Source: Opitutaceae bacterium (GTDB taxonomy: Bacteria > Verrucomicrobiota > Verrucomicrobiia > Opitutales > Opitutaceae). From it: a stretch of 64,000 bases of DNA. The first letter of the stretch is position 1. Each line of letters starts with the position of its first letter. The stretch lies in contig JAUSID010000168.1 in assembly GCA_030648295.1 (NCBI GenBank), positions 1 through 64,000 of the forward strand. Reading direction: 5' to 3'. The notes under the pieces are model-generated. The model searched no databases, was not told the origin of the DNA, and was given only the letters and a program-made list of their open reading frames with translations. The position numbers and the translations under genes are program-made. Below are positions 31,996 through 56,291 of the stretch, in pieces.

Positions 31996-34026
31996 ATGCC
32001 CAGCCTTCATCCTCTCGATTACGTCATCCTCGCGGCCTACTTCGTTGTCCTGATTGTCCTCGGCAAGGTTTCGGCCAAGCACGCGAAGACCGGCGAAGGT
32101 TTTTTCCTCGCCGGCCGCAAGCTCGGCAAGCTCTACCAGTTCTTCCTCAACTTCGGAAACTCCGTCGCCGCCGCCGACACCGTCAGCACGTCGAGCCTCG
32201 TCTACCAGCACGGCGTCTCCGGCGTGTGGGTCGGGTTCCAGATGATTTTCCTGAACCCGTATTACTGGTTCATGTTTCCGTGGTATCGGCGCGTGCGACT
32301 GACGACGATGGCCGATATCTTCCAGGATCGGCTCGGCAGCCGCCCGCTCGCGCTTTTCTATGCCAGTTTCCAGATCGTCATGGCGGTGGCGGTCTCCATG
32401 GCCTTCGGCAACCTGGTCTCGTACAAAATCTCCGCCGCCCTGGTGACGAAACCCGAGGCCACGTGGACCCAGGGCGAAGCGCAGTCCGTCAGCGGTTATC
32501 GCGAACTCACCCGCCTCGAGAACACGAGGCGCGAGCGGCCGTTGTCGGAACCGGAACAGGGCACGCTCGGCTCCCTGCGCGAGCGGCACACGCGCGGCGA
32601 GTTGAACAACTACGTCACCGCCCTCGAACCGTGGTCCTTCTACATCGTCTACACCCTCGCGGTCGGAATCTACATCGTGCTGGGCGGCATGACTGCAACC
32701 GCGCTCAACGAGTCTTTTCAAGGTGTGTTGATCCTCGTGTTCTCGGTCATCCTGATCCCGGCGGGACTGGCTGCGATTGGCGGCTGGCACCAGCTCGGTG
32801 CGACACTGCCCGACGCGAAACTCAATCTGTTCGGCGCGACCGGCGTGTCGGACTTCACCGGCTGGACGATCGCCGCCGTGTTCTTCGCCACGATTCTCCA
32901 GGCGCACGCGATGCCGCACAACATGAGCATCGCCAGCTCGGCCCGAAACGAATTCGCCGCGCGGTTCGGTGCGGTGGCCGGCACTTTCGGCAAGCGGATC
33001 GTCACGATCATGTGGGCGTTCTGCGGGCTGATCGCGATCGTGATGTTCTCCGGCCCGAACACGCTCGCCGATCCCGACACGGTCTGGGGCACGATGTCCC
33101 GGCAGCTGCTCGGGCCGGGGATGCTCGGCTTGATGCTCGCCGGCGTGCTCGCGGCCAACATGTCGACCGTCGCGGCGCAGGCCATGGCGGTGTCGGCGCT
33201 CTTCGCGCGCAACGTCTACGCGAGCTTCCGCCGCGATGCGACCGATGAAGACGTAGTGCGCGCCGGCCGCCGCACGCTTGTCGTCGTCCTCATCCTCGGC
33301 GTGCTCGTCGCGACCAAGCTTTCCGATGTCTACACCGTCCTCCAGTTCGCGATGACAATCAACGTGCCCTTCGGCGCGTCGATTCTGCTGATGTTCACCT
33401 GGCGCCGCCTCACCGCGCCCGCGGTGTGGACCGCCGTGATCGGCTCCGCCCTGCTCAACATCGTGTTTCCGCTCGTCGCCCAGAATATCCCGGCCCTGCG
33501 CGATCATCCCGCGCTGACGGTGCGCGCGACAGACGCGAACGGACGGCCGCTCGCAGTTTATTTCGAGTCGGTCATCCGCTCCGACTCCAGCAACCCGAAC
33601 AGCCCGCTCCAGGGCCGCGGCCGGCTGCATACCGAATTGCTCGTGCTGCGCGCGGTCGGGGTCGACGTCGCGGGCTTTTCGCCCGGCGGCCGTCTCGCCG
33701 GCCGGTTCCTCGTCGATGCGCTCGTGCCGCTCGTCCTTCTCTTTGGCGTCAGCCTGGTGACACGTGCGCCCGATCGCCGGCTCGTCGAGCAGTTCTACGG
33801 CAAAATGAAAACGCCGGTGGCACCGACGCCCGAACAGGATGTAATCGCAGTGGAGGAAACGCGACGCGACCCCGGCCGTTTCGATCATCAGAAGCTCCGC
33901 CCGAAATCATCGTGGGAGTTCACGCGATGGGACGCCACCGACACGATTGGTTTCGCGGTCAGCTGCCTCGTGACTCTCGTGATCATCGGTGCCTTTCTCG
34001 GTCTGCTGCAACTGGTCCGGATTTGA
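31996..34026 (+). CDS. Solute:sodium symporter (SSS family) with two extra soluble segments
   Basis: A 676-residue inner-membrane transporter of the SLC5/SSS fold. FFLAGRKLGKLYQFFLNFGN with VAAADTVSTSSLVYQ is the Na/substrate site of TM1-2. Further membrane spans continue to IGFAVSCLVTLVIIGAFLGL. Two regions are unusual: a charged segment of about 60 residues (151-209) between early spans, and a segment of ~70 residues (about 500-570) between late spans that contains YFESVIRSDSSNPNSPLQGR. Typical SSS members have ~500-550 residues. It is probably the importer for the monosaccharide released by the locus. It lies in the plus-strand operon after the amidohydrolase and before a large secreted protein. 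Confidence 0.88.
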   Translation: MPSLHPLDYVILAAYFVVLIVLGKVSAKHAKTGEGFFLAGRKLGKLYQFFLNFGNSVAAADTVSTSSLVYQHGVSGVWVGFQMIFLNPYYWFMFPWYRRVRLTTMADIFQDRLGSRPLALFYASFQIVMAVAVSMAFGNLVSYKISAALVTKPEATWTQGEAQSVSGYRELTRLENTRRERPLSEPEQGTLGSLRERHTRGELNNYVTALEPWSFYIVYTLAVGIYIVLGGMTATALNESFQGVLILVFSVILIPAGLAAIGGWHQLGATLPDAKLNLFGATGVSDFTGWTIAAVFFATILQAHAMPHNMSIASSARNEFAARFGAVAGTFGKRIVTIMWAFCGLIAIVMFSGPNTLADPDTVWGTMSRQLLGPGMLGLMLAGVLAANMSTVAAQAMAVSALFARNVYASFRRDATDEDVVRAGRRTLVVVLILGVLVATKLSDVYTVLQFAMTINVPFGASILLMFTWRRLTAPAVWTAVIGSALLNIVFPLVAQNIPALRDHPALTVRATDANGRPLAVYFESVIRSDSSNPNSPLQGRGRLHTELLVLRAVGVDVAGFSPGGRLAGRFLVDALVPLVLLFGVSLVTRAPDRRLVEQFYGKMKTPVAPTPEQDVIAVEETRRDPGRFDHQKLRPKSSWEFTRWDATDTIGFAVSCLVTLVIIGAFLGLLQLVRI

Positions 34027-34153
34027 GCGCGACGAGTTGAGCTCCTGGGCATCGCGCGGGCGCGCTTGATGGGAGGCTCACGTCCGGTTGAAATGCGGCG
34101 TTTCAGCGCCGGATCGTAATGTCCCTTCTCCACTGAACGTCTATCCTCCCATC

Positions 34154-36727
34154 GTGCGCACCAGCCTCGCCCTCGTTTCCTTTTTCGTCGTCGGCATTTC
34201 TGCCGTTTTCGCCGCATCGACCGCACCGCAGACAGCACCCGCGACGCGTGCGCCAGAGCTGACGATTCTCGGCCCGAATTATCCCCGCGCGTTTTTCTTT
34301 CGCGCCACCGAGGGACAGGCGGCGAACCTGGCGACCAGCTATGAATCCTGGGACGCGGATTTCAGCCGGCTGATGGGGATCATCGGCAAGGCGCTCGACG
34401 AGGAAGTGCTCGGCCGGGAGGCGCGCAACCCGGAGTTTTTCACCCGGTTCAAGCGCGCCCATCCCGAACAGGTGGTGCTGCTTCATTTCAACGGCAACGC
34501 CCGCGACCCGATCTACCACACCGAAAAATATTTCCCGGGCCACTGGATTCACCGTCAGGCCACGATGATCCTCGCCGATGTGCCGGCCCAGAGTGGCGAG
34601 ACCACAATCAAGGTGCGGGACGCGTCCGACTTTCAGGTGAACACGGGCCGCTACAAAAACGCGAACGACGACATCGCGCTTTTCGGTGTCACCCGCGACG
34701 GCCACCACGATTGGAATTATTGCGAGCAGGTGCAGCTGGTCGCCGTGGATCGGCCGGCCGGGACGATTCGCGTTCGTCGCGGCTGCTACGGCACCCGGCC
34801 GCTCGCGTTTAAGGTCGGAGCGGCGCGCGCCGCCGCCCACCAGGCGGAGGGCCCCTGGGGAAGGACGAATCACCTGATGTGGTACTACAACTTCGCCACG
34901 CACTGCCCGCGTGACGCGGAGGGGAAAACCGCGGCGGACCGGCTCGCCGACGACCTCGCCAGCTGGTTCGGTCCGGGTGGGAAACTCGCTGCCTTCGACG
35001 GACTCGAGTTCGACGTCATGCATCACGAGACTCGCGGCGACACCGATGGCGACGGTGAGCCCGACCACGGCGTGATCGACGCCATCAATCGTTACGGTAT
35101 CGGCATGATCGAGTTTGCGCGGCAGCTGCGCACGCGGCTCGGCCCCGCCCGGATCATCCAGGGCGACGGCGCGCTCGGCCCGGGCGGACGGCGTTCGCAA
35201 CGCGCTTTCGGAATCCTCAACGGCATCGAGAGCGAGGGATTTCCCAACCTCCAGGACTGGGCGTTCGACGATTGGTCGGGCGGGCTCAACCGGCACGCGT
35301 TCTGGACCGCGAACGCGCACCCACCGGCCTTCAGCTACATCAACCACAAATGGAACCAGTCGGTTCCGGGCAAACCGGGGGAACACCAGAATCCGGAAGT
35401 GCCTTTCTCCCGCCACCGGCTTTCGTTCGCCGCCGCGCAGTTCACGGACGCCGCCATCTGCTACTCCTTCGCCCCCGCGCGAGATCGCGCCGGCCAGTTT
35501 GGAATCTGGGACGAACTTCGCGGCGGCACGCTACAACGTCCCGGCTGGCTCGGCCGCCCGGAGGGTCCGGCCCTCCACGTCGCCACGACCGCGCCAGATT
35601 TGCTGGCCGGGACGGACTGGGCGCGCCGCATCGGCGGTCCAGTGACGACGCGATCAACCGTCGCCGGCGTGCGGATACAGCCGACCGATTCAACGGCGGC
35701 GCGACTCGGCTTCACGCTCCGCGATCTACCCACGAATGGTCGCGACCTCGTGGTGCAGCTGACCGCGCAGGCGGAAACGCGGGCGGGTTATCCGCGTGAG
35801 ATGGCGCGTTTCCTCGAGTGCGAGTTGGGCGGCGGCGTGCTCAATCTGATCAGGGGCACGCCCGATCAGGTCGGCATCGGGCGGCGCGGCAAACCCGAGA
35901 CGCCACTTCGGCCGGAGACCGGCGCGCGCTTGCAGCCGCAGCCCCGTACGAGCATCGGCGGCCGCACGCTGCCCGCGTATTCGATTCATCCCCCGTACCT
36001 CGACGGCAAAGGTTACGTGTTCTGGACTCGCGACGTCGATGTGCCCGCCGCGGCGGAGCTGCGGTTCTCCATCGGCATGAGTGACCGCGCGCCCGGCCGT
36101 TCCGATGGCGTCTGGTTCAAGGTGCTCGCCGCCGAACTTACCGGCGGACGCGTCGGCCCATTCACCCCGCTGTTCGAACGCAGCACGCAGGCACACGCGT
36201 GGATGCCCTGCACCGTGCCGCTCGAGCGTTTCGCCGGCAAACGCGTGCGCTTGAAGTTCGTCGCCGACTGCGGACCGAAGGACAACGCCACCACGGACCA
36301 GGGCTTCTGGGGCGACGTGAAGATCGTCCGCGCGGGACTTCGGGACACGGACGTAACCTCGCCGGCCCACTCGATGTCGTGGGTGAACGACCGGACGTTC
36401 ACGTCCACGTTTTATTTTCACGACGTGCGCTCGCCGACGGTGGACCTGACCTTCTCGCTCGACGGCGCCGAGTCGGTGACAATCGCCGCGGTCAATGGGT
36501 ACGCCCGGCCCGACACGATGTATCGGGTATTCGAGCACGGCTTGGTGCTCGCGAATCCGTCGCGGCAGTCGGTCACATTCGACCCCGCGACGCTGACACC
36601 CGGCCGGCAATACCAGCGGCTGCAAGGAGTCCCAACGCAGGATCCGCGCACCAACAACGGCGAGCCGGTGACCGGGCCGATCACCCTCGGCGAGCGCGAC
36701 GCGGTGTTTTTGTTGCGAGTGAAGTGA
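34154..36727 (+). CDS. Large secreted protein of unknown class, TIM-barrel-like with C-terminal beta domains
   Basis: An 857-residue protein. The GTG at 34154 starts a clear signal peptide (VRTSLALVSFFVVGISAVFA); the 22 extra residues of the track ORF are polar. The N-terminal half has putative glycosidase-like strand motifs: FFRATEGQAANLATSYESWD, VLLHFNGNARDP, FDGLEFDVMHHETRGD (acidic residues plus a Ca-site-like DTDGDGEPDH) and RIIQGDGALGPGGRR. The C-terminal half is beta-rich with GKGYVFWTRDVDVPAAAELR and VDLTFSLDGAESVTIA, resembling carbohydrate-binding modules. I do not recognise a named family; a TIM-barrel glycoside hydrolase is the best guess. Its position at the end of the plus-strand arm ties it to the same glycan. 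Confidence 0.65.
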   Translation: MRTSLALVSFFVVGISAVFAASTAPQTAPATRAPELTILGPNYPRAFFFRATEGQAANLATSYESWDADFSRLMGIIGKALDEEVLGREARNPEFFTRFKRAHPEQVVLLHFNGNARDPIYHTEKYFPGHWIHRQATMILADVPAQSGETTIKVRDASDFQVNTGRYKNANDDIALFGVTRDGHHDWNYCEQVQLVAVDRPAGTIRVRRGCYGTRPLAFKVGAARAAAHQAEGPWGRTNHLMWYYNFATHCPRDAEGKTAADRLADDLASWFGPGGKLAAFDGLEFDVMHHETRGDTDGDGEPDHGVIDAINRYGIGMIEFARQLRTRLGPARIIQGDGALGPGGRRSQRAFGILNGIESEGFPNLQDWAFDDWSGGLNRHAFWTANAHPPAFSYINHKWNQSVPGKPGEHQNPEVPFSRHRLSFAAAQFTDAAICYSFAPARDRAGQFGIWDELRGGTLQRPGWLGRPEGPALHVATTAPDLLAGTDWARRIGGPVTTRSTVAGVRIQPTDSTAARLGFTLRDLPTNGRDLVVQLTAQAETRAGYPREMARFLECELGGGVLNLIRGTPDQVGIGRRGKPETPLRPETGARLQPQPRTSIGGRTLPAYSIHPPYLDGKGYVFWTRDVDVPAAAELRFSIGMSDRAPGRSDGVWFKVLAAELTGGRVGPFTPLFERSTQAHAWMPCTVPLERFAGKRVRLKFVADCGPKDNATTDQGFWGDVKIVRAGLRDTDVTSPAHSMSWVNDRTFTSTFYFHDVRSPTVDLTFSLDGAESVTIAAVNGYARPDTMYRVFEHGLVLANPSRQSVTFDPATLTPGRQYQRLQGVPTQDPRTNNGEPVTGPITLGERDAVFLLRVK

Positions 36728-36861: not shown

Positions 36862-38370
36862 TCACGGCTGCCGCGGGATCCGGTTGAGCGTGTAGTACGC
36901 GTCCGGATGCGCGAGCGGCGCACCCGAGGCGGAACGCACACCATCGGCGCGAAGTTCGTGGACGTACAGCTCCCGCAAACCTTCGACCTGGAGGCGGACG
37001 TGAAGTCCGTCGCTGCTCACCGTCGCAGATGTGATTGCAAGCGGTCGCACGTCGATCTCCGGACTTCCATACGCACTGGAGTACAAGAAAGTGTAGCTCT
37101 TGATCGAATACGATTCAGTCCGTCCGGCACTCTCCGCGTCGACGGGAGAAGTGAACACGAGTTCAAATCCGCCGGGCAGGGCGCGCATTTCACGCAGCGC
37201 GAAGGGTGTCAGGCCAGTCCAGCGCACGCGTTGCAGCCCATAGGAGTGCAGCCCGAGCGACGACCACCCGCGGCTCGTCATACCAACGAAGAGGCTGCCG
37301 TCGTCCCCAAAGAGCACGCGTACCACGCCGGAGGCGAAGCCGGAGAGAAAAGGAAACGCCGCGCCCTGGTATTGGCCGTCGACCTGCTCGAGAAACACGC
37401 GGCTCACCTTCGCATCGGTGAATTCGCCGACGAACAACTGTCCGTCAAACGGTCCGAACTTTCCCGCCTGGTCGCACACCGCGATGTCCGTTCCGCTGCG
37501 GCCCATCTTGTTATAGGGCAGCCAGACCGCCGGCGGTGCCATTTCCGGCACGGCGCGAACCGCGTCAGGGTAGGGAACCTTGTTCGGTACCGGCGCCGAA
37601 AGCTTCACCGGCGAGTCGGGCCTCCGCTGGGGCCCGAGGCCTTCCGGGTTCAGATAAAACGCGCCCCGGCGCAGGTGGTAAATCGGCGTCGCGGGTATCC
37701 ACGTTCCCTGTTGATCCACACAAAACATGTCGCCGGTCGCATTCGCGCCCAATCCGCACGGTGAGCGCATTCCCGCCGCCATCGGCTTGAATGCGGCGTC
37801 CGCGCCAATAATCCCGGCCCAGCCGCGCCACGGGGCGTCATTGTCCGACCGCTCGCCCAGATCGAGATTGAGCGCCACCCACAGATTCCCCGCGCCATCG
37901 CGCTTCGGCCCGTACGTGTAACCATGATACGCGCCGGAGACATTCCAGCCGCGGCAGGCGGTGAGATACTCGTCGGCCACGCCGTCGCCATTCGTGTCCC
38001 GCAGCCGGGTGATTTCGGTACGCTGCGCGACCAGCAGGCCGTCACCATCGCGCATCACGCCCAGCGGCTCATGCAGCCCCGAGGCAAAAAGCTTGTAGGT
38101 CGGCGGCGAGGTGGCCCCGCGCTGCAAACCGTCGATCAACCAGACCTCACCCTTGCGGATCGCGACGGCGAGCTTGCCGTCCGCGGTAAAGTCCATGCCG
38201 CCGACTTCGAGGACAATTCCGTCGCCTGGTTTCCAGTTCGCACTCCGCGATGAAGTCGGCGAGCTCGCCGCCAGGATCGTTTGGATCTCGTACGCCTCGG
38301 TTGCAGTGGCCGCTGCGCCAGTAGCGGTCAGGAGGGTGAGCGAGCCGAGCAGCAAGTAAATTCGTTTCAT
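36862..38370 (-). CDS. Periplasmic sorbosone-dehydrogenase-like beta-propeller protein
   Basis: A 502-residue exported protein (signal IYLLLGSLTLLTATGAAATA). The propeller shows VGGMDFTADGKLAVAIRKGE, LHEPLGVMRDGDGLLVAQRT, ITRLRDTNGDGVADEYLTAC and RSPCGLGANATGDMFCVDQQ, the pattern of the 'membrane-bound dehydrogenase' proteins common in Planctomycetes and Verrucomicrobia, related to soluble glucose/sorbosone dehydrogenases. A C-terminal beta domain (ITSATVSSDGLHVRLQVEGL) follows. The ATG ending at 38370 overlaps the TGA of the cytochrome gene (ATGA) and is preferred to the GTG two codons earlier. Electron transfer to the co-encoded cytochrome is inferred; PQQ binding cannot be shown by eye. 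Confidence 0.78.
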   Translation of the reverse strand: MKRIYLLLGSLTLLTATGAAATATEAYEIQTILAASSPTSSRSANWKPGDGIVLEVGGMDFTADGKLAVAIRKGEVWLIDGLQRGATSPPTYKLFASGLHEPLGVMRDGDGLLVAQRTEITRLRDTNGDGVADEYLTACRGWNVSGAYHGYTYGPKRDGAGNLWVALNLDLGERSDNDAPWRGWAGIIGADAAFKPMAAGMRSPCGLGANATGDMFCVDQQGTWIPATPIYHLRRGAFYLNPEGLGPQRRPDSPVKLSAPVPNKVPYPDAVRAVPEMAPPAVWLPYNKMGRSGTDIAVCDQAGKFGPFDGQLFVGEFTDAKVSRVFLEQVDGQYQGAAFPFLSGFASGVVRVLFGDDGSLFVGMTSRGWSSLGLHSYGLQRVRWTGLTPFALREMRALPGGFELVFTSPVDAESAGRTESYSIKSYTFLYSSAYGSPEIDVRPLAITSATVSSDGLHVRLQVEGLRELYVHELRADGVRSASGAPLAHPDAYYTLNRIPRQP

Positions 38371-40451
38371 TGCCACGTGTAGACGAAGCTCAGTTTGCCC
38401 CCCTCACTCCCCTCCTCCTCCTTCGCGCCCACGCCCTCCGGGTGCGCAACGGCGATCGATCGCAACCGCTCCACGTTCCAACGTACGGAACGACGCAGCC
38501 CGCCCGGCACCGGTTCGAACCGTTCCTCCACCGGCACCCCATTGACGGTGAAAAGAAATATCGGCACACCGGTGGCGTCGAGTCGGTAGCCGGAGAAACT
38601 CCGCAGCCCCGGCGGCGCAGCGGGCGCCGGCCATTTCAGCGCGTCGCCCAGCGGTTTCTCGAATGGCGCGAAGCGGCTGAACCACGTTCCATACGCGTCG
38701 AAGAACCGCCCCTTCCAGACCAGCGCGGGCCGCGCCTCGCTCGCATCGTAGGCAAGATGCACGCCGGCGGGGAACCCAACGAGAATCGCATGCGTGCCGA
38801 CATCCTGGAGGAACGTGCGGAGCACGATCGGCCGTTCGGTTGGCACCAGCTCAAACTCCCGTGTCGTCATGGAGGGAAACCCCTCCGGCACGCCGCGGCC
38901 TTCGCGCGCAAACGCCACGATCGAGGCAATCTGGCGATCGGTGTCGCCACCCAGCACCTCGCGATTCGCCGCCTTTCCGTCCGGCCAGAACGACGGCATC
39001 AATGTGCCAGGCCGGTACGCGGCTGGATTCACCAGGTAATCGCGCAGCCAGCGCGGCTGGAGCCGCTGCGCCAGATTTGAAATATCCATGCCCTGAATAC
39101 CCAGCGAAGCCCGGTCGGCCCAGCGATGACACGTGATGCAGCTCACGCCACCGTGCGTGCCGAGCAGCTTGCGGCCCGCTTCGACATCGCCAGCGGGCAT
39201 GGGCCATTCCGGCCCGGCATCCACTCGTGCGAGCAGCGCCGGCAGCTCGGCTACGGCCCCGCCGTAAACCGGCATCCGCGTGTTCAGGTAGGGCCGCACG
39301 CGCACTGCACCCTTCACCGCCTGCTCGAGCCACTTGGGCTGGAGCTTGCGGCCGACGCCGGTCAAGGGCGGCAGATAACGTCCCGTGTCGCCGAGATTGG
39401 GATCGCCCGAAATGTAATCCCTGTGCGCCGCGTCCGGCCCGCCGTTGCCGTCGCGCTCGTGACACGCCGTGCAGTTCAATGCCTGCATGGTCAGTGCGAC
39501 CCTGTGCTCCGCCGGAAGCGTTTCGTCCCGCCGGGCGAGGAACGACTGGAGCGCACGCCGCTGGCTGACGTTGAAGACATAATTGGGCACCCCGGCGGCC
39601 GGCACTTCGGCCAGGCAACCGCCGGCGGGGTCACGTATCGGCGTGACTTGGACGCGCTCCGCCGCCGGCAGATCATGGCACCCGGCACACCACAGCGCGC
39701 CGACCACGTCACGACCACGCGCCGCTTTTTCGCGATTCGGCACAAACGGGTCGAGCTTCGGCGCCTGCTCGCCGTCACTGCCCGGCAGGCCCAACAGGTA
39801 GCTCGCGATATCAATCGCATCCTGTTCCTCCATTTCGATCCGTGGCATTCGTCCATCCGGCCGCGTCTTGAGCGGGTCGCGGATAAAATCGCCGAGAGAA
39901 CTCAGCACATATTTTTCCTCCAGCGACGGAAACACGACCGTGCCGGAAGCGAGCCCGGCGGCAGGCGGCCGGCCTCCGGCAGGGACATAATCGTCCCGCG
40001 GGGCATGACACGCGACGCAACCGATCGTGTGAAACAGAAGTTTTCCGCTCTCGCTGTTCATGTGGCGGATCAACCTGGCGCGCCCCGTGGACTTGGGCGC
40101 CAGCGTTCCCAGGTAATGCACCACGGCCCCGGCATCGGCCGCATCACGGCCCGCGAACAAGCCGGGCATCGATGTTCCGGATCGGTGTTGATCGGGGCTG
40201 GCGATGAAAGCACGCAACCAGTCCGCTTTTTGCCGCGTCGTGACGGTGGTCAGATCGGGCCCGCGACGCGCCGGCAGACCCGTGTCGCCGCCGTGGCAGT
40301 TGGCGCATCCCAGTTCATTATAGAGCAGCCTGCCTCCGGCAACGCCGGCCTCGCCAGCATGGAACCGCTGATGTCCAATGACCACCGGCTCACCGGCCGC
40401 GACGGAGGCGCAGGCCAGCGCGAGCGCGAGGTGGTAAACCGTCCTGCTCAT
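38367..40451 (-). CDS. Exported pentahaem c-type cytochrome
   Basis: A 694-residue exported protein (signal SRTVYHLALALACASVAAG; the ATG ending at 40451 overlaps the previous TGA). Five CxxCH haem c motifs are visible in order: CANCH, CVACH, CAGCH, CTACH and CITCH, each in a cytochrome-c-like subdomain, with downstream Met candidates such as GTSMPGLF, GRMPRIEM, TRMPVYGG and GTLMPSFW. The final ~200 residues without haem motifs (AFEREL-like FPSMTTREFELVP onward) are beta-rich. It would accept electrons from the co-encoded propeller dehydrogenase and pass them to the respiratory chain. It is flanked on both sides by 4-base ATGA overlaps, so it is tightly co-translated. Confidence 0.9.
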   Translation of the reverse strand: MSRTVYHLALALACASVAAGEPVVIGHQRFHAGEAGVAGGRLLYNELGCANCHGGDTGLPARRGPDLTTVTTRQKADWLRAFIASPDQHRSGTSMPGLFAGRDAADAGAVVHYLGTLAPKSTGRARLIRHMNSESGKLLFHTIGCVACHAPRDDYVPAGGRPPAAGLASGTVVFPSLEEKYVLSSLGDFIRDPLKTRPDGRMPRIEMEEQDAIDIASYLLGLPGSDGEQAPKLDPFVPNREKAARGRDVVGALWCAGCHDLPAAERVQVTPIRDPAGGCLAEVPAAGVPNYVFNVSQRRALQSFLARRDETLPAEHRVALTMQALNCTACHERDGNGGPDAAHRDYISGDPNLGDTGRYLPPLTGVGRKLQPKWLEQAVKGAVRVRPYLNTRMPVYGGAVAELPALLARVDAGPEWPMPAGDVEAGRKLLGTHGGVSCITCHRWADRASLGIQGMDISNLAQRLQPRWLRDYLVNPAAYRPGTLMPSFWPDGKAANREVLGGDTDRQIASIVAFAREGRGVPEGFPSMTTREFELVPTERPIVLRTFLQDVGTHAILVGFPAGVHLAYDASEARPALVWKGRFFDAYGTWFSRFAPFEKPLGDALKWPAPAAPPGLRSFSGYRLDATGVPIFLFTVNGVPVEERFEPVPGGLRRSVRWNVERLRSIAVAHPEGVGAKEEEGSEGGKLSFVYTWQ

Positions 40452-41371
40452 CCCGCCACGGCCTCGCGGCACCTTTCCACGTAATCGCGGGAGCGATTGA
40501 TCGCCGCGGTGATTTCCGCGACCGTCGGGAGAATCGGCACGCCGCGCGGCGTCGGGTGCATGAAGATTTCCACGTAGCCGGCGTAGTGGATGTCGCGCAG
40601 CGCCTTCACGATCTCACGGTAGTCCAGCCCGCCACCGAAACCGGGGAGTTGCTGCAGTTCAATTTCCTTCGTCGTCTTTTTACGGATACCTTCGGAATGC
40701 TCTTGGAAATACATGAACGGGATCTGGCTTGCACCCAGGTCACGAATGAGCGCCGGGATTTGATCGGTCCACGCGTGCAGATGATGGGGCGCAAACGCGA
40801 TGCCGAGCCGCGGCGAGCGGTTGAACTCCGCGAAATAACGCAGCGCGTCCGGGTGATAGAGCAGATGCTTGTCGTGGTTCTCCAGCGCGATGGTGATACC
40901 GTTTTCCTCCGCGCGCTCGGCGTGGGGTTTCATCATCTCGAGAAACTCGCGCACCGCCGTCTTCGCGGCCGCGCCGCTGGGTTCCGACGGTCCCCGGCTG
41001 CCCGTGACGATGATTCCGCCGCCGAACTTTTTCATCCACTCCATCTCCTCGCGCAGTCCGCCCGGACCGAGCGGATACCGCGTGCTCACCCCGAGCTTTA
41101 CCCGGTGCCGCTGAAGCAGGGCGGCAAACGCGCCGTCACCCATTTCCGCGATCTGCTCGCGCTGGTTGCCATGCACGCGGCACCAGATGTCGATCGCTTC
41201 GCAACCCGTCTTCGCGACCTCGGGCAGGATGACGTCGAGCGGCATCTCGCCGTAAATCGCGGACGAGAGAATGTAGCGGAGGTGAAACGCATCGCCGCGT
41301 GCCGCCCGGCAAAGAACGGGCGCCGCGGCGGCGACCGCCAGCGAACGAAGAAAATGTCGGCGGGGAATCAT
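40448..41371 (-). CDS. Tat-exported sugar phosphate isomerase/epimerase-fold protein
   Basis: A 307-residue protein of the xylose-isomerase-like TIM-barrel superfamily (AP endonuclease 2 Pfam fold). The N-terminus MIPRRHFLRSLAVAAAAPVL has a twin-Arg type signal (RRHFLRSL), so it is probably exported. Barrel motifs include ITIALENHDKHLLYHPDALR (metal-binding Glu, His), RLGIAFAPHHLHAW and YAGYVEIFMHP (C-terminal Glu). Periplasmic members of this fold include lyases and isomerases acting on 3-keto-glycosides, which would fit an oxidising system next door; that link is inference. It lies between the TonB receptor (48-base gap) and the cytochrome (ATGA overlap). Confidence 0.82.
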   Translation of the reverse strand: MIPRRHFLRSLAVAAAAPVLCRAARGDAFHLRYILSSAIYGEMPLDVILPEVAKTGCEAIDIWCRVHGNQREQIAEMGDGAFAALLQRHRVKLGVSTRYPLGPGGLREEMEWMKKFGGGIIVTGSRGPSEPSGAAAKTAVREFLEMMKPHAERAEENGITIALENHDKHLLYHPDALRYFAEFNRSPRLGIAFAPHHLHAWTDQIPALIRDLGASQIPFMYFQEHSEGIRKKTTKEIELQQLPGFGGGLDYREIVKALRDIHYAGYVEIFMHPTPRGVPILPTVAEITAAINRSRDYVERCREAVAG

Positions 41372-41419
41372 GCTGAGGGGCGGAGGTGAGGTTTGCTCGT
41401 CGCGCGCGCGGGCGCGACC

Positions 41420-44400
41420 TCAGAATCGGCCGGTGATCCCAAAGTTCACGAATGCGCCGTTGTCGAAGTCGGCATTGGGGCGGCTCCGATCGAAGTAGTA
41501 CCATCTCTGGTGAGCGTTGAACATGTTTTGAAAGTCGCAGTAGATCTCGAGCTTGGGCGAGAAGACGTAGCTGAGGTTCAGATTGGCCGCCGTGCGTTCG
41601 AATTTGTAGCGCAAACGCGAGCGATCGGTGGAATAGCCGACGAGATACGCGCCGGTGTGATTCACGAGCAGCCGCGAGCGAAACTTCCGCCAGGGGAAGC
41701 TCACGCCCGCATTGGCTGTGGTCGGCACGAAGTTGGGCACGAGGTTCGTCGTCCGCGGGCCGGTGGACCCGTAATCACCTTCGGTCGTGAGCCGCGTGTA
41801 GTTCGCGAAGAAACTCGAGCGCCGCAGCACGCCGGGCAGGAACGTGAGCTGCTGCTGATAGCTCAGCTCGATCCCCTGAATCCGCGCCCGGCCGGCGTTG
41901 CGATCCGTGCGGAGGCTGTAGCCGCCATAACTGCCGCCGAAGCCGTTGTCCGGTCCATCGGGCACCGTCTCCCCGCCGAGGGACACGATGAAGTCCTCGA
42001 GGTCCTTCCGAAATACGCCGACCGAAAGCGCACCGACCGATTCGAAATAGTACTCGAGGGTGAAATCGATGTTCTCGGCGAACTGCGGCTTCAGGGCGGG
42101 ATTGCCGACGGTCAGCGTCTGGGTCTGGTCGTTCACGTCCTCGCGCGGCACGAGGTTGGCGAACGGTGGCCGGCCGATGCTGTTCGACCAGTTGGCGCGC
42201 GCGAGCAGCGTGCGGGAAAAATTATAGGTCAGGTACGCGCCGGGAAACGTCTGGCTGTATCGGCCTTCAATCCGCCGCGGATGATCGTAATCCGTTCGCG
42301 CCCGCTGCACCGGATCCGGAATTGCCGCTGCGGTCGCGAGCGTGCGGGCCCGTACGAACCCCTCGCCCGCCACCTGCGTTTCCTCGAAACGCACTCCGGC
42401 GACCGCTCGCAGCTGCCGCCAGCGCGTTCCGCCCATCACATAGGCCGACGACACATCCTCCGTCACGCGCCGTGTGCCGAGAAACGTTCGCGATTCGTCG
42501 TAATATTTATCGGAGAACCAGTGCGACGGGTTGTTTTTCACATGCTCGGCGACATAGCCGACGTGAGTGTATGGGATCGGACCGTTGCGCTGGCTCTCGG
42601 TCGTCTGCACATCCTTGAATTGGAAAATGCTGAGATCGGCGTCATCGCGACCGGTGGCGGGATTGACACCGAGGACTCCGTCCGGCCCCGCGTAGCGCCA
42701 GCGGCGGTCGCCACCGACCTCCTCGGCGATCTGCCGGCGGAACCGGCCGCCGGTCTTGACGTAGTTCGTGCCTCGCGCGTCGAAGCGGTACTTCGCGTTC
42801 AGGGACACACTCTCGAGAATGCAATTACGCTCGTTGTTCCGCTTGTTCAGTTCGCTGTTGGTGTAGTTCTTCAGATCGAAGATGCTCGGGCCGGCCGTCT
42901 GCGTGAAGATCGGCCGCGCCTGGTCGGCGGTCTTGTCGAACGTCCAGCCCACGCCCGTGAGCCAGGTGCGGAAAAAGCCACCGGATCCGATCTTCGGGAG
43001 ATAATGGCCGTCGTTCTGCCGGACCAGGCTCTCCGAATAGGCGGCATCGTAATCCAGCGTGAATTTCGAGTACGTGTGCTCGGCGCCGGCATGGAGCTGC
43101 CGCTGCGAATCCTCGAAGCGATTGCCGTCGGTCTGGAGCTCGAACGTCGAGGCGGGTACGGGGCGCACGTGCGTCACGTCGTTGGTGAAACCGGGTACGA
43201 TGGCATTGTTGCCGATGGGCTGCCCCGCCGCATTCAGGGTCGCGATGTTGCGGGACGTGAAGGCGCGCGTCCGCAGGTATTCGAATGAGCGCTCGTGCGC
43301 GTCGTTGTAGATGCCGTTGAGAAAAACGCGAAAGTTTGGGTTGAACCGATAATCGATCTTCAACGTCGCGCTCTTGTTCATCCGGTTGTTGTAGATATCG
43401 GCCGAGCGGTAATCCCATACATACGCGGGGCTCGTCGTGGTGAACGCGTAGTCCTGCGTCATCTGGATGGCCGTCACGGCGTTCTCGCTGTAGAACAGCC
43501 CGAAGGTGACGCCGAGATTGCGGTCGCCGCCGAACGCGTCGAACACCTCCTGATAGCTGAACGACGTCATCGGGTGAATCGAGTGATGTCGCGTCGCCGG
43601 GTTGTGATCGTAGAACGGAGGCGCCCACTTCGCACCAAAGCGGTAAATCATCCGCCGCTTTTCCTTCATGCTGAGCGGCGAGCGAGTCTTCATGTTGATG
43701 TTTCCGCCGAGCGAATCGGCATCGATGTCGGGCGTCGCCGCCTTCGTCACCTCAATCGTGTCGAAGAACGCGCCGGGGATGCTGTTCGTCCGGAAGTTCC
43801 GGTTCATGCCGCCGGAACTCGCCATCTTGTTGCCGTCGACGGTGACCGAATTGAGCGTGTGATTGGTCCCGCGCACCATCACCTCGCCCACGACGCCCTC
43901 GCCGTTCAGCGCCCCGGCGATGCCCGGCAGACGGATGAGCAATTCGCCCGCCTCGCTGTTGGACAGGTTGCCATAGGCATCGAGCGCGACGACGCTCTTG
44001 ACGCTGTCGGCGTTGCGTTGCGCGGTCAGCGCCGCGGCGCTGCCTTCGCGCTCACCCACCACGCTGAATTTATCGAGCCGGTAGACATCGGACCCGAGAT
44101 CGAACGTGACCTTAACCTGCGCGCCAGGCGCCACGGAGATCAGCCGCTCCTCGCGGTTCAGCCCGATGTAGCTGACGACAATTGCGTGCTCGCCGGCGGG
44201 AAGATCGTCGAGGGAGAAGCGGCCGAGGTTGTCGGTGAGCGTGCGGCGCCCAAGGGCGGGAAGCTCGACCATCGCGCCCTCCAGCAGCGCACGGGTTGCA
44301 CCATTGCTCACTTGGCCGGTAATCCGACTGGTGCCGGACTCGGCGGAAACGGCACGCTGCGCGTGGACCGGCAGTACGTGCAAGCCGGCCGCGAAGATCG

Positions 44401-44446
44401 CCAGCGCAACGAGTGGGAAACTCGCAGGAGAAGGGCAGGGTTTCAT
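41420..44446 (-). CDS. TonB-dependent outer-membrane receptor with carboxypeptidase-regulatory-like domain
   Basis: A 1008-residue receptor. Signal: FPLVALAIFAAGLHVLPVHA. Residues ~38-115 form a CarboxypepD_reg-like beta domain (ITGQVSNGATRALLEGAMVE, TDNLGRFSLDDLPAGEHAIV). LDKFSVVGEREG may be the TonB box. The plug has SVVALDAYGNLSNSEAGELL, GEVMVRGTNHTLNSVTVDGN and FFDTIEVTKAATPDIDADSL (the TIGR01782-like 'PD..AD..GG.IN..TRS' motif). The barrel ends in FVNFGITGRF. It supplies the substrate for the downstream Tat-isomerase/cytochrome/propeller operon on the same strand, 48 bases away. Confidence 0.94.
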   Translation of the reverse strand: MKPCPSPASFPLVALAIFAAGLHVLPVHAQRAVSAESGTSRITGQVSNGATRALLEGAMVELPALGRRTLTDNLGRFSLDDLPAGEHAIVVSYIGLNREERLISVAPGAQVKVTFDLGSDVYRLDKFSVVGEREGSAAALTAQRNADSVKSVVALDAYGNLSNSEAGELLIRLPGIAGALNGEGVVGEVMVRGTNHTLNSVTVDGNKMASSGGMNRNFRTNSIPGAFFDTIEVTKAATPDIDADSLGGNINMKTRSPLSMKEKRRMIYRFGAKWAPPFYDHNPATRHHSIHPMTSFSYQEVFDAFGGDRNLGVTFGLFYSENAVTAIQMTQDYAFTTTSPAYVWDYRSADIYNNRMNKSATLKIDYRFNPNFRVFLNGIYNDAHERSFEYLRTRAFTSRNIATLNAAGQPIGNNAIVPGFTNDVTHVRPVPASTFELQTDGNRFEDSQRQLHAGAEHTYSKFTLDYDAAYSESLVRQNDGHYLPKIGSGGFFRTWLTGVGWTFDKTADQARPIFTQTAGPSIFDLKNYTNSELNKRNNERNCILESVSLNAKYRFDARGTNYVKTGGRFRRQIAEEVGGDRRWRYAGPDGVLGVNPATGRDDADLSIFQFKDVQTTESQRNGPIPYTHVGYVAEHVKNNPSHWFSDKYYDESRTFLGTRRVTEDVSSAYVMGGTRWRQLRAVAGVRFEETQVAGEGFVRARTLATAAAIPDPVQRARTDYDHPRRIEGRYSQTFPGAYLTYNFSRTLLARANWSNSIGRPPFANLVPREDVNDQTQTLTVGNPALKPQFAENIDFTLEYYFESVGALSVGVFRKDLEDFIVSLGGETVPDGPDNGFGGSYGGYSLRTDRNAGRARIQGIELSYQQQLTFLPGVLRRSSFFANYTRLTTEGDYGSTGPRTTNLVPNFVPTTANAGVSFPWRKFRSRLLVNHTGAYLVGYSTDRSRLRYKFERTAANLNLSYVFSPKLEIYCDFQNMFNAHQRWYYFDRSRPNADFDNGAFVNFGITGRF

Positions 44447-44640: not shown

Positions 44641-45264
44641 TCACGATGTCGCAGCGGCGACGACGTTTCCGCTGACGACGTTGGCCGCGGCCGGTTTCCT
44701 CGACCGTTCGCGTTCGTCCTTCAACAGCCTGATCCAAGCGCCGAGGTATTTCCCATTATCGTGAAAGGTGCGGCCGCTGACCAAGTTCCCGTCGATCACG
44801 CAGGGCTCATTGACGTAGACGCCGCCGCACACTTCGAGGTCGAACTTGCATTTGGCGACGGTGGCCATGCGGCGGCCCTTGACGCAGCCGGCGCGCGCCG
44901 GGATTTCCACGCCGTGGCACACGCTGGCCACGGGCTTGTTGTGCTCGAAAAACCAGCGGGTCGCGCGGAGCAGGTGTTCGTCTTCGCGGATGTATTCGGG
45001 CGCACGGCCGCCGCTGAAAAAAATTCCGGCGTATTCCGCGGGTTTGATTTCCGCGAACGTGATGGCCGCATCTATGGTGTAGCCCTCCCACTCCTTGGTG
45101 ATGGTCCAGCCGGGTTTCACCTCGTGCATGACCATCTGGTATTTTCGTTTCTCCGGCGCAGCGACCACGGGTTCGAACCCGTCCTCCTGCAACCGGTAGT
45201 AGGGATAAAGCGTGTCGAGCGTTTCGGCGGCGTCTCCAATGATGATGAGCACCTGGTTGAGCAT
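44641..45264 (-). CDS. DJ-1/PfpI family protein
   Basis: A 207-residue cytosolic protein of the class I glutamine amidotransferase-like DJ-1/PfpI superfamily. QVLIIIGDAAETLDTLYPYY opens the fold; PVASVCHGVEIPARAG has the nucleophile-elbow Cys followed by His; GIFFSGGRAPEYIRED carries the acidic loop. Members act as chaperones, glyoxalases or amidases, and the specific role is not readable. The C-terminal tail (KPAAANVVSGNVVAAATS) is Ala/Val-rich and atypical. It is divergent from the AraC-type gene at 45343, sharing a short intergenic region that may be controlled by that regulator. Confidence 0.88.
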   Translation of the reverse strand: MLNQVLIIIGDAAETLDTLYPYYRLQEDGFEPVVAAPEKRKYQMVMHEVKPGWTITKEWEGYTIDAAITFAEIKPAEYAGIFFSGGRAPEYIREDEHLLRATRWFFEHNKPVASVCHGVEIPARAGCVKGRRMATVAKCKFDLEVCGGVYVNEPCVIDGNLVSGRTFHDNGKYLGAWIRLLKDERERSRKPAAANVVSGNVVAAATS

Positions 45265-45342
45265 CGCAGTCCAGTCTAGCCATGAGGCGCCGGCATGGTC
45301 TATGGAGGATCAGCCCGTATTTGTATCGATTCGTCCTGCCCG

Positions 45343-46173
45343 ATGACCCGCAACCGCGATTACCGAGACCCTTTCACTGGCGTGGGCGTGCGCCTTTCGG
45401 GTGATTCCGCCGCCGCCACGGATTTTCTCATTCATGAGGCCGGCTGCCTGCGTTATCGCGACTGGAATCACTGCGGGATCGTCAGCCCGTATTGGCGGTT
45501 GCACCATAACTTCACGACCGGGAACAGCGTGGTGTGCGACCGAAGCGTGTTTCCATTACGCCCAGACGTGGCCGTGCTGACCCCCGCCGGCGTGCGGATT
45601 GACACCTGTGGACCGCGCGTGCTGCTGCACACGTGGATTCATTTCACTCCCACGCGCGGGTATCGGCTTCCCCAACGGGCGCCATTCTCGGTGCGCCTGC
45701 CGCCGCCGCTGCGGGCGCTACTACGGGAATTGGCGGCCGCCTTTCGATCGCGGCGGCCTCGCTCCCATGCGGGCCGCCTGCATCACCTCGGGCAGGCGCT
45801 GCTGCACGGCGTCTTTGCCGGTCTCGACCCGGGAATGTATCGGAGCGTGCCGGCCGACCTGGGGGCGCTGCTGGCGCGCATGGAGAAACATCCGGAGGAG
45901 GATCTGACCGTGTTGGGGCTGGCGCGCATGGCGGGCAGGAGCCGCTCGCGCTTTGCCGCCTGGTTCAAAGCCGCGGTGGACGAGACGCCGGCGCACTACG
46001 TGCAGAGGCTTCGTATTCGTCTGGCGGCTACGCGACTTGGATTCGGCGAGGAGAGCGTGGAGGAGGTCGCCGCGGCGACCGGTTTCGCCAACCGGCACCA
46101 TTTCACGCGCGTGTTCTCGGCGATGACGGGCATCGGTCCGGGTGCGTATCGAAAGCGGCACAAACAGCCATGA
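45343..46173 (+). CDS. AraC-family transcriptional regulator
   Basis: A 276-residue regulator. The N-terminal half is a cupin-like sensor (YWRLHHNFTTGNSVVCDRSV, LLHTWIHFTP). The C-terminal half has the double helix-turn-helix of AraC/XylS: LTVLGLARMAGRSRSRFAAW for the first HTH, then YVQRLRIRLAATRLGFGEES and EVAAATGFANRHHFTRVFSA with the C-terminal signature. The ATG at 45343 is used; the ATG at 45295 is also in frame. AraC proteins in such loci usually activate sugar genes on binding a mono- or disaccharide. It is divergent from the PfpI-like gene and close to the second receptor operon; the targets are not shown. Confidence 0.9.
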   Translation: MTRNRDYRDPFTGVGVRLSGDSAAATDFLIHEAGCLRYRDWNHCGIVSPYWRLHHNFTTGNSVVCDRSVFPLRPDVAVLTPAGVRIDTCGPRVLLHTWIHFTPTRGYRLPQRAPFSVRLPPPLRALLRELAAAFRSRRPRSHAGRLHHLGQALLHGVFAGLDPGMYRSVPADLGALLARMEKHPEEDLTVLGLARMAGRSRSRFAAWFKAAVDETPAHYVQRLRIRLAATRLGFGEESVEEVAAATGFANRHHFTRVFSAMTGIGPGAYRKRHKQP

Positions 46174-46195: not shown

Positions 46196-47392
46196 TCAGC
46201 CGATTGCGCCCTCTTGCTTCAACGTCGCCAGTGCCGCGTCGTCGTAACCCAATTCGCGCAGGATCTCCACCGTATGCTCGCCGAGCTCCGGAGCGAACCG
46301 CCGCGGAATCGGTGGTGTCCCATGCAGCCGGACCGGCGTGCCGGGCAGCCGAAGTTTGCCGGCCTGGTAATGCTCCATGTCGATCACCATGCCATTGGCA
46401 GCGAGCTGCGCATCGTTGATCGCGTCCTCGAGCGTGTTGACCTTCGCGCAGAAAACCCCCTTCGGCTCCAACTCCGCCAGCCACGCCGCGGTCGTTTTTT
46501 CGCGAAACCGCGCCGCGAGCAGCCCGTTGAGCTCCCGGCCGTTCTCCCGCTGCAACGCATGCGTGGCGAACTTTGCCAGCTGCGAGAGATCGCCCAACCC
46601 GATGGCCACACCGATATCCCGCACCGCGTTGTCCGAAAACACCGGCGAAATTTCGATGTAGCCGTCCTCGGTCGCGAACGACTTGTCGACGATCGACTCG
46701 TTCGCGGTGACGCCGGAAACCTCGGTTACGCGGGACGCGTTCATCGCCGCCGGCCCTTCCCACGAGTGCGCGTGAAATGCGACGCTCAGGAGATCGGTCG
46801 TGACCCGCTGACCGCGGCCGGTCCGCTCGCGCGCGAGCAGCGCCATCAGGATTCCCTGCATCAACATGAGCCCGGCGGGGTAGTCCGCCGAAATGCCAGC
46901 GGGAAACGGCGGCTTCGCTGGATCCGGTTGCGTGAACCAACCGGCTTCGGCGCGCGCCATCAAATCGTGACCACCCCGTCCGCGCTCGACCGACGGGCCA
47001 TGATCACCCCAGCCACCGGACGACGCGTAGATGAGCCGCGGGTGTTCGGCCGCGAGGTCGTCGTAGCCGAGTCCAAGCTTTTCCATTACGCCGTTGCGGA
47101 AATTATGCACCACCACGTCGGCGGTGACGATCAGCGCGCGAATCGCGTCCTTGCCCGCCTGACTCTTCACGTTGATCGCAAAGCTGCGCTTGTTCCGATT
47201 GAGCCCGGCAAACGGGAGGCTCACGCCGTTCACGAAAGGCCCCCAGCGGCGGCTCCAGTCGCCCACATCGGGCCGTTCGATCTTGATCACGTCGGCCCCA
47301 TAATCGGCCAGAAGCTGGGTCCCGACCGGACCTTGGTAAACGTGGCTGAAATCGACAACGCGAATGCCGGAAAGGGCGGACGGGGTACTCAT
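46196..47392 (-). CDS. Class III (CaiB/BaiF) CoA-transferase
   Basis: A 398-residue cytosolic enzyme of the formyl-CoA transferase/CaiB/BaiF family. The N-terminal GIRVVDFSHVYQGPVGTQLL and the DVIKIERPDVGDWSRRWGP blocks, ADVVVHNFRNGVMEKLGLGY and the RGGHDLMARAEAGWF segment (which holds the catalytic Asp region) are characteristic. It transfers CoA between carboxylic acids. It converges on the AraC gene (22-base gap) and is divergent from an enoyl-CoA hydratase gene, so both may serve the same acid breakdown pathway. The substrate is not evident. It has no link by sequence to the sugar loci around it. Confidence 0.92.
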   Translation of the reverse strand: MSTPSALSGIRVVDFSHVYQGPVGTQLLADYGADVIKIERPDVGDWSRRWGPFVNGVSLPFAGLNRNKRSFAINVKSQAGKDAIRALIVTADVVVHNFRNGVMEKLGLGYDDLAAEHPRLIYASSGGWGDHGPSVERGRGGHDLMARAEAGWFTQPDPAKPPFPAGISADYPAGLMLMQGILMALLARERTGRGQRVTTDLLSVAFHAHSWEGPAAMNASRVTEVSGVTANESIVDKSFATEDGYIEISPVFSDNAVRDIGVAIGLGDLSQLAKFATHALQRENGRELNGLLAARFREKTTAAWLAELEPKGVFCAKVNTLEDAINDAQLAANGMVIDMEHYQAGKLRLPGTPVRLHGTPPIPRRFAPELGEHTVEILRELGYDDAALATLKQEGAIG

Positions 47393-47494
47393 GGGCGCGT
47401 GCCAAGGCCGCGACTGACGGGTTGATTGTCAACCAAAAGTCCCTTGTCTCACGCGGCATCGCCTCGACAGCGTCCCACCCTGCCCGAACACCGC

Positions 47495-48283
47495 ATGTCC
47501 ACCCGCCTCGACACGACCCATGCCGCCTCGGTTTGCACCGTAACGTTGCATCCTCCGGAGGGAAAACCGCCAACGCTTGATCACGCGTTGATGGGCGAGT
47601 TCGAGCGGGCGCTGGATGAAATCTCCGCGCGCACCGATCTTTCGGTCGTCATTTTGCAGAGTGCATCGCCAAAATTTTTCTGCGCCGGCGCGAACCTCAA
47701 GGTGATGGAGACGATCGATCGACAGACCGTCGTCCCGTGGGTGGAGCGCGGACACCGGCTGATGAATCGGATCGAGTCGCTGCCGATGCCCACCGTGGCC
47801 CGCGTGGAAGGATATGCCCTCGGCGGCGGACTGGAGCTGGCCATGGCCTGCGATGTCATCTTCGCCTCGGACAACGCCCGTTTCGGCCAGTCGGAAACGA
47901 AGCTGGGATTCGTCACCGGTTGGGGCGGCAGCTATCGGCTGACGCGACGGGTCGGACTGGCGCGGGCGAAGGAGCTCGTTTTCAGCGGGCGGATTATTGA
48001 AGCGATGGAGGCGGTTCGAATGGGGGTCGCCGAATGGCACGGCAGCGCGGCCGAGCTCGAGCGACGCGTCACGGAATTCGCGAGTGCCGTCGTGGGCAAC
48101 GGTCGTGTCGCGGTCCGGGAAATGAAATCGCTCCTCGAAGGCTGCACGCGCACGTCGCTCGAGGAAAACGCCGCGCTGGAAGCGGCGGCTTCCCAGCGGT
48201 GCCTGATCGAAGGTGACGCGGCGGAGCGGCTGCGGAATTTCCTGCACAAGCGATCCTCCGGCGGGCCCACGGCGCAGAAATGA
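47495..48283 (+). CDS. Enoyl-CoA hydratase/isomerase family protein
   Basis: A 262-residue crotonase-fold protein. KFFCAGANLKVME forms the first oxyanion-hole strand, EGYALGGGLELAMACDVIFA the second with the CoA-binding helix. FGQSETKLGFVTGWGGSYRL contains the region of the catalytic Glu of hydratases (here the ETKLG block). The ATG at 47495 is preferred to the TTG at 47426, which adds 23 polar residues. It probably hydrates or isomerises an acyl-CoA, and the divergent CoA-transferase gene could supply the CoA ester. Its length is typical for single-domain members. Confidence 0.9.
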   Translation: MSTRLDTTHAASVCTVTLHPPEGKPPTLDHALMGEFERALDEISARTDLSVVILQSASPKFFCAGANLKVMETIDRQTVVPWVERGHRLMNRIESLPMPTVARVEGYALGGGLELAMACDVIFASDNARFGQSETKLGFVTGWGGSYRLTRRVGLARAKELVFSGRIIEAMEAVRMGVAEWHGSAAELERRVTEFASAVVGNGRVAVREMKSLLEGCTRTSLEENAALEAAASQRCLIEGDAAERLRNFLHKRSSGGPTAQK

Positions 48284-55494: not shown

Positions 55495-56291
55495 ATCGAG
55501 AAGCCACCGTCGACCACCAGATTCTGCCCGGTCACATAGTCGGACGCCGGTGCCGCCAGGAAAAGCACCGCGCCCTTGAGATCGACGCCGTCGCGGCCCA
55601 TCCGTCCGAGCGGTGTGCGCTCGCCGTAATCGCACACGAAACCTTCCGGCAGATTTCCGCGCGCGAATCCGCCGGGGGAAATCGCATTCACGTGCACGCC
55701 GAGCGGGGACAACAACCCCGCGAGATCGCGCGTCAGCCCAATGACACCCGCCTTGGCCGCCGCATAGTCGATCGGCTGCCCCTTCATGTCGTTCTTCTCG
55801 TAGATGCGGCGATCGCGGCCGACCAGCCCCGCGACCGACGCAATGTTGATAATCTTCCCGCTGCCCTGCTTCGCCATGATTCGGCCGACCTCCTGGCAGC
55901 AGTGGAGCACTCCGAGCAAATTGCTCTGCACCATATCGACGACATCGGCCGGGTCGCGTTGGAAGAGCAGCGCCGGCGTCTGACCTGATCCGCCGCCCGC
56001 ATTGTTGACCAGAATATCAATCCGGCCCTTCCACGTCATGGCCGCGGCGACAGCGGCCGCGACGCGGCTGTGCTCCCGTTGATCCAGTTCGATCGCAAGC
56101 GTCTCTCCGTGGTGTTTCTCCCGGAGGGACTCCGCCGCCTTCTGCGCGCTCGCGAGTGTGCGCGAGGTGACGATCACGGCCGCGCCCGCCTCCGCCAGCG
56201 CATCCGCCATGTCGTAGCCAAGATTGCGCGCGCCGCCGGTGACCAATGCAATTTTACCGTCGAGCCGAAACAGCGCAGGGAGACTGTGCAT
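55485..56291 (-). CDS. Short-chain dehydrogenase/reductase (SDR)
   Basis: A 268-residue cytosolic SDR of classical type. KIALVTGGARNLGYDMADAL is the TGxxxGxG-type NAD(P) motif (here GGARNLG); ILVNNAGGG is the NNAG motif; IINIASVAGLV supplies the Ser; YAAAKAG is the YxxxK catalytic pair. The C-terminal LAAPASDYVTGQNLVVDGGF is typical of the FabG-like branch. It would oxidise a sugar acid or polyol; gluconate 5-dehydrogenase-like proteins look similar. It is the first gene of the SDR/oxidoreductase/propeller unit, preceded by a 357-base gene-free stretch. Confidence 0.93.
   Translation of the reverse strand: MHSLPALFRLDGKIALVTGGARNLGYDMADALAEAGAAVIVTSRTLASAQKAAESLREKHHGETLAIELDQREHSRVAAAVAAAMTWKGRIDILVNNAGGGSGQTPALLFQRDPADVVDMVQSNLLGVLHCCQEVGRIMAKQGSGKIINIASVAGLVGRDRRIYEKNDMKGQPIDYAAAKAGVIGLTRDLAGLLSPLGVHVNAISPGGFARGNLPEGFVCDYGERTPLGRMGRDGVDLKGAVLFLAAPASDYVTGQNLVVDGGFSIWR

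Follow-up and report, generated by a model that had tools for sequence, protein, structure and literature searches.

Introduction

The breakdown of 3-keto-glycosides is already known as a theme; it combines oxidation and reduction with a step of elimination or hydrolysis. In Caulobacter, glycosides are oxidized in the periplasm by the lactose 3-dehydrogenase LacABC, and the keto product is broken by PF06439 (DUF1080) proteins, which include a 3'-ketolactose hydrolase (PMC9007349). In the Agrobacterium GlycDH-AtOGE-AtHYD-Gfo pathway and with the gut enzymes CGE and PuCGE, oxidation is followed by the action of a TIM barrel of the sugar isomerase type on the keto-glycoside (PMC10628242). The characterized TIM-barrel 3-keto-glycoside eliminases need Mn2+. 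AtOGE binds the metal at β5 through His132 and uses His134, two residues further along, as its catalytic base; the corresponding residues of PuCGE are a Glu and His143 (PMC10628242). The trehalose utilization proteins ThuA and ThuB act through 3-keto derivatives (PMC7404187).

We analyzed a 64,000-nucleotide stretch of DNA from an Opitutaceae bacterium, referred to as the window. An operon in it encodes a protein of the xylose isomerase fold (ISO), a c-type cytochrome (CYT) and a propeller protein (PROP). The locus is a real, conserved variant of the keto-glycoside oxidation theme, and the mechanism that we propose for it is plausible. Similar to the Caulobacter system, a glycoside would be oxidized in the periplasm before the keto product is broken. 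In place of LacABC, a propeller and its pentahaem cytochrome are the predicted oxidase, and the window operon contains ISO and a DJ-1/PfpI-family protein (PfpI) instead of PF06439. Compared to the Agrobacterium pathway and CGE, ISO is Tat-exported and lacks the Asp/His/Glu metal ligands, and the predicted oxidase is unrelated to the flavoenzyme GlycDH. Unlike ThuA/ThuB, oxidation here would be respiratory and periplasmic. Full-text searches of mostly open literature returned no description of the operon. Neither the predicted PROP/CYT oxidase pair nor a TIM-barrel partner devoid of the metal site was found there.

Gene organization and conservation

An earlier note on this DNA had described four genes, for a TonB-dependent receptor, ISO, CYT and PROP. 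All four open reading frames are located on the minus strand (Table 1), and Pfam and NCBIfam searches agree with their assignments. As the note had observed, three of the genes are joined by ATGA: the ISO/CYT and CYT/PROP junctions both have this overlap, whereas a gap of 48 nt separates the TonB receptor gene from ISO. The proposed location outside the cytosol is also borne out, with an RRxFL Tat-type signal on ISO and Sec-like signal peptides, recognized by eye, on CYT and PROP. Scanning for promoters and terminators gave no signal above that of shuffled sequences.

Table 1. Coordinates of the operon, its surroundings and features in related loci. Positions are those of the window unless a locus is named.
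Feature	Position	Strand	Evidence or remark
SSF symporter	31996..34026		Adjoins the gene of the 879-aa protein
879-aa protein	34088..36727	plus	Possible signal peptide; no Pfam/NCBIfam match; downstream, convergent
PROP, exported six-bladed propeller (502 aa from ATG)	36862..38370	minus	DUF7133/TIGR02604-type
ATGA overlap CYT/PROP	38370..38367		
CYT, exported pentahaem c-type cytochrome (694 aa from ATG)	38367..40451	minus	PF00034, five CxxCH
ATGA overlap ISO/CYT	40451..40448		
ISO, Tat-exported xylose-isomerase-fold protein (307 aa)	40448..41371	minus	PF01261 (AP_endonuc_2)
TonB-dependent receptor with CarboxypepD_reg-like domain (1008 aa)	41420..44446	minus	TIGR01782, 372 bits
PfpI, DJ-1/PfpI family (207 aa)	44641..45264	minus	PF01965, 104.6 bits
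AraC-family regulator, divergent (292 aa)	45295..46173	plus	HTH_18/HTH_AraC
CoA-transferase family III	46196..47392	minus	Beyond the regulator
Enoyl-CoA hydratase	47426..48283	plus	Beyond the regulator
SSF symporter	49829..48327	minus	Upstream of the operon
Second TonB receptor	52891..49976	minus	Upstream of the operon
Gfo/Idh oxidoreductase	55494..54487	minus	Upstream of the operon
SDR	56291..55485	minus	Upstream of the operon
CYT relative fused to PF06439	L113, 4238-7630		122 bits
CYT relative fused to PF06439	L157, 2949-6560		116 bits
PROP relative fused to PF06439	L118, 7724-9934		106 bits
PROP paralog fused to ThuA	L147, 5759-8152		137 bits
PROP paralog fused to ThuA	L148, 5827-8265		145 bits
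Bacteroidetes-labelled MAG with ISO	L044, 1-9938		Two PfpI copies

A scan for ISO in 84,980 species, each represented by one genome, found 62 loci, nearly all of them labelled as Verrucomicrobiota. The gene arrays of the relatives were obtained with tblastn and a gene caller based on codon usage. ISO, CYT and PROP occur together in 43 loci, and several other loci end at contig ends. Conservation of the gene order across Verrucomicrobiota, which the earlier note had put forward as a check, is found for these three genes. In 47 loci, PfpI adjoins ISO on the same strand. Most junctions are coupled by ATGA: the spacing is -4 in 24/45 cases for ISO-CYT and in 27/37 for CYT-PROP. Pairwise distances among ISO, CYT and PROP are correlated at 0.95-0.97, a level reached by none of 500 permutations, whereas the correlations of PfpI with the three are 0.59-0.67. 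This suggests that ISO, CYT and PROP evolve as a unit, to which PfpI is more loosely attached.

Variations in this arrangement were observed. L107 and L128-L130, which are more distant, have the order ISO-PfpI-CYT-PROP. The genomes of L034, L035, L051 and L060 have an ISO without adjoining CYT and PROP, and a five-haem CYT-PROP pair on another contig. In the marine Opitutales loci L031, L033 and L038, genes that are sulfatase-like by sequence flank the operon, which hints at polysaccharide-derived substrates.

Judged by gene order, the conserved unit across Verrucomicrobiota is PfpI-ISO-CYT-PROP with a divergent regulator of the AraC/XylR type, and the carriers of the exported set are Verrucomicrobiota of soil and water. 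The isolate Chthoniobacter flavus Ellin428 (locus L036) is one of them. The earlier outline of the module was right for ISO-CYT-PROP. It missed PfpI and the regulator, and it included the TonB receptor, which is optional. The receptor was rejected as part of the conserved unit, being an insertion in a few Opitutaceae loci. Only the window, L014 and L024/L105 have its gene inserted between PfpI and ISO. A different TonB receptor occupies this place in L012, and TonB receptors are found near the operon but elsewhere in L015, L018, L019 and L023.

Several other genes surround the operon (Table 1). The SSF symporter, second TonB receptor, Gfo/Idh and SDR genes upstream of it are on the same strand and could belong to the same sugar pathway. 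In about nine Opitutaceae-type loci (L009, L010, L014, L015, L017, L024, L069, L105 and the window), the operon is linked, on either side, with the CoA-transferase and enoyl-CoA hydratase genes.

The active site of ISO

ISO matches PF01261 with 66 bits, compared to a cut-off of 31.1. A simple pattern detects the RR motif of a Tat signal in 64 of the 70 loci; the others mostly have variants such as RRRKI and RRRNV or are truncated. The AF2 model of ISO has a pLDDT of 90.5 and is matched by D-tagatose and D-allulose 3-epimerases at a TM of about 0.65.

The metal ligands were mapped with phmmer against a solved epimerase and with an hhalign profile against four other isomerases of the same genome (98% probability). 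The canonical tetrad Glu-Asp-His-Glu maps to E164, A194, Y221 and F270 in ISO, with the conserved Gly that precedes strand 8 as the reference for placing F270. All 70 loci have A194 and F270, and 68 have Y221. By this mapping, three of the four canonical metal ligands are lost. ISO was therefore rejected as an ordinary sugar-phosphate isomerase, as it is exported and has lost these ligands. The known eliminases of this fold depend on such a metal site, so the analogy with them does not carry over to ISO directly.

Other residues are strictly conserved. His67, His150, His166, His197, His272, Lys235 and Glu238 are invariant and Arg276 is nearly so. Most of the invariant residues are located at the C-terminal ends of the barrel strands, as defined in the AF2 model, suggesting that ISO has what looks like a rebuilt active site and is not a dead enzyme. 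ISO reads E164-N165-H166, and H166 is invariant in 70/70 loci. As in AtOGE and CGE, this His is two residues after the β5 ligand position. By analogy, His166 would correspond to the catalytic base of the eliminases, which is a lead and not proof. A His at this position is not unique to ISO, as it is also found in one of the four other isomerases of the window genome. In L106, a different, non-orthologous Tat-exported AP_endonuc_2 protein fills the place of ISO, and by eye it keeps a His at the base position (KAH).

PROP and its cytochrome partner

The AF2 model of PROP has a pLDDT of 78.5. In Foldseek it matches 2ism, 3a9g, 3das and 6jt5 with E values of 1e-9 to 1e-7, and 6h7t is also in the match list. 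The fold is closest to those of PQQ aldose/glucose dehydrogenases and AA12 pyranose dehydrogenases, with which PROP also has the six-bladed propeller and the cytochrome partner in common. When PROP is aligned with PF07995 proteins, His149 falls at their catalytic His and Arg202 at the Arg of their RNP motif. This alignment is weak (hhalign probability 39%) and came only with a widened profile; hhalign against a single GSDH sequence gave nothing useful. Ser203 replaces the Asn of the RNP motif in the PQQ site. Compared to the PQQ sugar dehydrogenases, the window PROP has no PF07995 match up to an E value of 0.001, and its cofactor is predicted. A phmmer search of PROP against the PDB sequences found no match. 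The paralog in L142 attains the PF07995 threshold, with 25.1 bits.

The closest solved structures are C1-oxidizing aldose/glucose dehydrogenases and AA12 enzymes. They point to the main rival of a keto-sugar pathway, in which oxidation by PROP would be at C1 of a free aldose or osone and give a lactone or aldonate, CYT would be the acceptor, ISO would be an exported epimerase or isomerase, and no glycosidic bond would be cleaved. The epimerases of the xylose isomerase fold use the metal site that ISO has lost, which argues against this role. We consider C1 oxidation rather unlikely.

Host synthesis of PQQ is not strictly required for its use, as PQQ can be scavenged. PqqE was absent from all 16 PROP-bearing genomes that were searched directly, including the window genome. 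The same search found PqqE in 6/376 genomes of the phylum, all in one family, showing that it works there; the 35 genomes with PROP matches include none of these six. This suggests that PROP, if it uses PQQ, depends on scavenged or imported PQQ, or that it has another cofactor. The earlier note had named PROP a sorbosone-dehydrogenase-like propeller. The resemblance to PQQ sugar dehydrogenases holds, but PROP resembles lactonases too, and the missing PqqE weighs against the assignment.

SMP30-type and other lactonase structures are indeed among the best Foldseek matches of PROP, and the L142 paralog has a PF08450 match below the cut-off. Together with the absence of PqqE from the 16 genomes, these matches would fit a lactonase of the SMP30/gluconolactonase type, or a binding propeller, with CYT serving another dehydrogenase. 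The gene neighborhood and the domain fusions argue otherwise. A cytochrome gene adjoins PROP in nearly all loci examined, and some PROP paralogs have a fused domain of cupredoxin (L112, L116, L117 and L143) or of cytochrome c (L144 and L145). These fusions fit with electron transfer, and we regard a lactonase or binding propeller as improbable.

The window CYT contains exactly five CxxCH motifs, and so do 54 of the 55 relatives counted. The family of its C-terminal domain was not recognized, and phmmer found no match among the PDB sequences. The fifth haem domain (437-514) scores as SoxX (TIGR04485, 70.9 bits compared to a cut-off of 61), which raised the question of a module that handles sulfur compounds. 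The match covers one domain of a five-haem protein, and SoxA was not found in the window genome, in a search in which no control genome matched. The sugar-type regulator of the relatives and the keto-sugar fusions described below also oppose a role in sulfur metabolism. We consider thiosulfate oxidation, or any other handling of sulfur compounds, extremely improbable and set this reading aside.

Links to keto-sugar enzymes

Relatives of both CYT and PROP are fused to domains of enzymes that act on keto-sugars (Table 1). PF06439, the 3-keto-disaccharide hydrolase family shared with the Caulobacter system, is fused to CYT relatives in L113 and L157 and to a PROP relative in L118. L157 and L032 belong to one Pirellula-labelled genome. 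In L147 and L148, PROP paralogs carry a fused ThuA domain. In addition, a Gfo/Idh gene directly follows PROP in L109 and L127, and a Tat Gfo/Idh gene precedes PfpI-ISO in L032. ThuB, too, is an enzyme of the Gfo/Idh type. Proteins with DUF1080 or AP_endonuc_2 abound in these genomes; the window genome, with 39 PF06439 and 57 AP_endonuc_2 matches, is rich in enzymes of the keto-sugar kind. Adjacency alone is therefore weak, and we place the weight on the fusions.

The independent PF06439 and ThuA fusions point to 3-keto-sugars and, together with the Gfo/Idh adjacency, favour the keto-sugar idea over plain C1 oxidation. The earlier note had proposed oxidation of glycosides to keto-sugars followed by cleavage. 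Its oxidation part agrees with the exported propeller and multihaem cytochrome pair and with the fusions; its analogy to eliminases does not apply directly to an ISO without the metal site.

PfpI and the regulator

The translated window PfpI contains the motifs SVCHG and GGRAPE, with the Cys-His and Glu residues, as read by eye. It has no signal peptide and, as judged from its sequence, is cytosolic in the window organism, whereas ISO is periplasmic. Among the relatives, a Sec-like signal is found on PfpI of L042, L043, L045, L048, L049, L052, L055 and L064, and a Tat-like signal on that of L032 and L044, suggesting that the compartment of PfpI is not fixed.

Two observations on PfpI favour C1 oxidation. 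DJ-1/PfpI proteins act on α-oxoaldehydes. In L044, PfpI-ISO is located near an HpcH-type aldolase, RraA and a mandelate-racemase-like protein, all three recognized by eye, which are typical of sugar-acid breakdown. L044 also contains a second isomerase relative near PfpI-ISO, with an Ala in the Asp position. The presence of these genes in a Bacteroidetes-labelled MAG possibly reflects horizontal transfer linked to sugar-acid breakdown.

In most relatives, the place of the regulator is taken by a XylR-like protein with a LacI-type sugar-sensor domain and an AraC HTH (Peripla_BP_3 and HTH_18; a PBP1_XylR match in L033 is below the threshold). The window regulator is an AraC protein without a recognized sensor domain.

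Proposed mechanism

We propose, with moderate confidence, that the operon serves as an oxidative keto-sugar module of the periplasm, in which PROP and CYT act before ISO and PfpI. The gene set, its conservation, the export signals, the haem count, the loss of canonical ligands and the fusions are read from sequence. The dehydrogenase activity, its cofactor, the C3 position, the lyase or isomerase step of ISO and the role of PfpI are what we infer.

In the proposed keto-sugar module, PROP would be a quinoprotein-type dehydrogenase of the periplasm with a glycoside or sugar as its substrate. The oxidized position is probably a secondary hydroxyl, with C3 the most likely. Electrons would pass from PROP through the pentahaem CYT to the respiratory chain. 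The Tat-exported ISO would then act on the keto-sugar with its rebuilt, non-canonical active site, most likely by deprotonation next to the ketone with His166 as the base. The reaction could be a β-elimination of the aglycone, or an isomerization or hydration of the keto-sugar. PfpI may process a reactive carbonyl product, in the cytosol here and, in some relatives, outside the cytosol. The TonB receptor may supply the substrate in some Opitutaceae, and the AraC/XylR-type regulator is predicted to control the operon in response to sugar.

A more specific version is that 3-keto-glycosides made by PROP and CYT in the periplasm are broken by a metal-independent, or re-metalled, ISO. PROP with CYT would then represent a new class of oxidase and ISO a new eliminase, a possibility that we put forward tentatively.

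Implications

If the keto-sugar reading is true, these bacteria would have a respiratory alternative to ordinary sugar hydrolysis. The conserved PROP/CYT pair, with its fusions to 3-keto-sugar enzymes in relatives, offers a hypothesis for dozens of unexplained DUF1080 and isomerase-fold genes in the window genome, namely that respiratory oxidation precedes glycosidic cleavage. If PROP uses PQQ, the bacteria would rely on other organisms to make it. ISO represents a TIM-barrel family that keeps the active-site face and has lost metal ligands in every member examined, and it poses a clear biochemical question.
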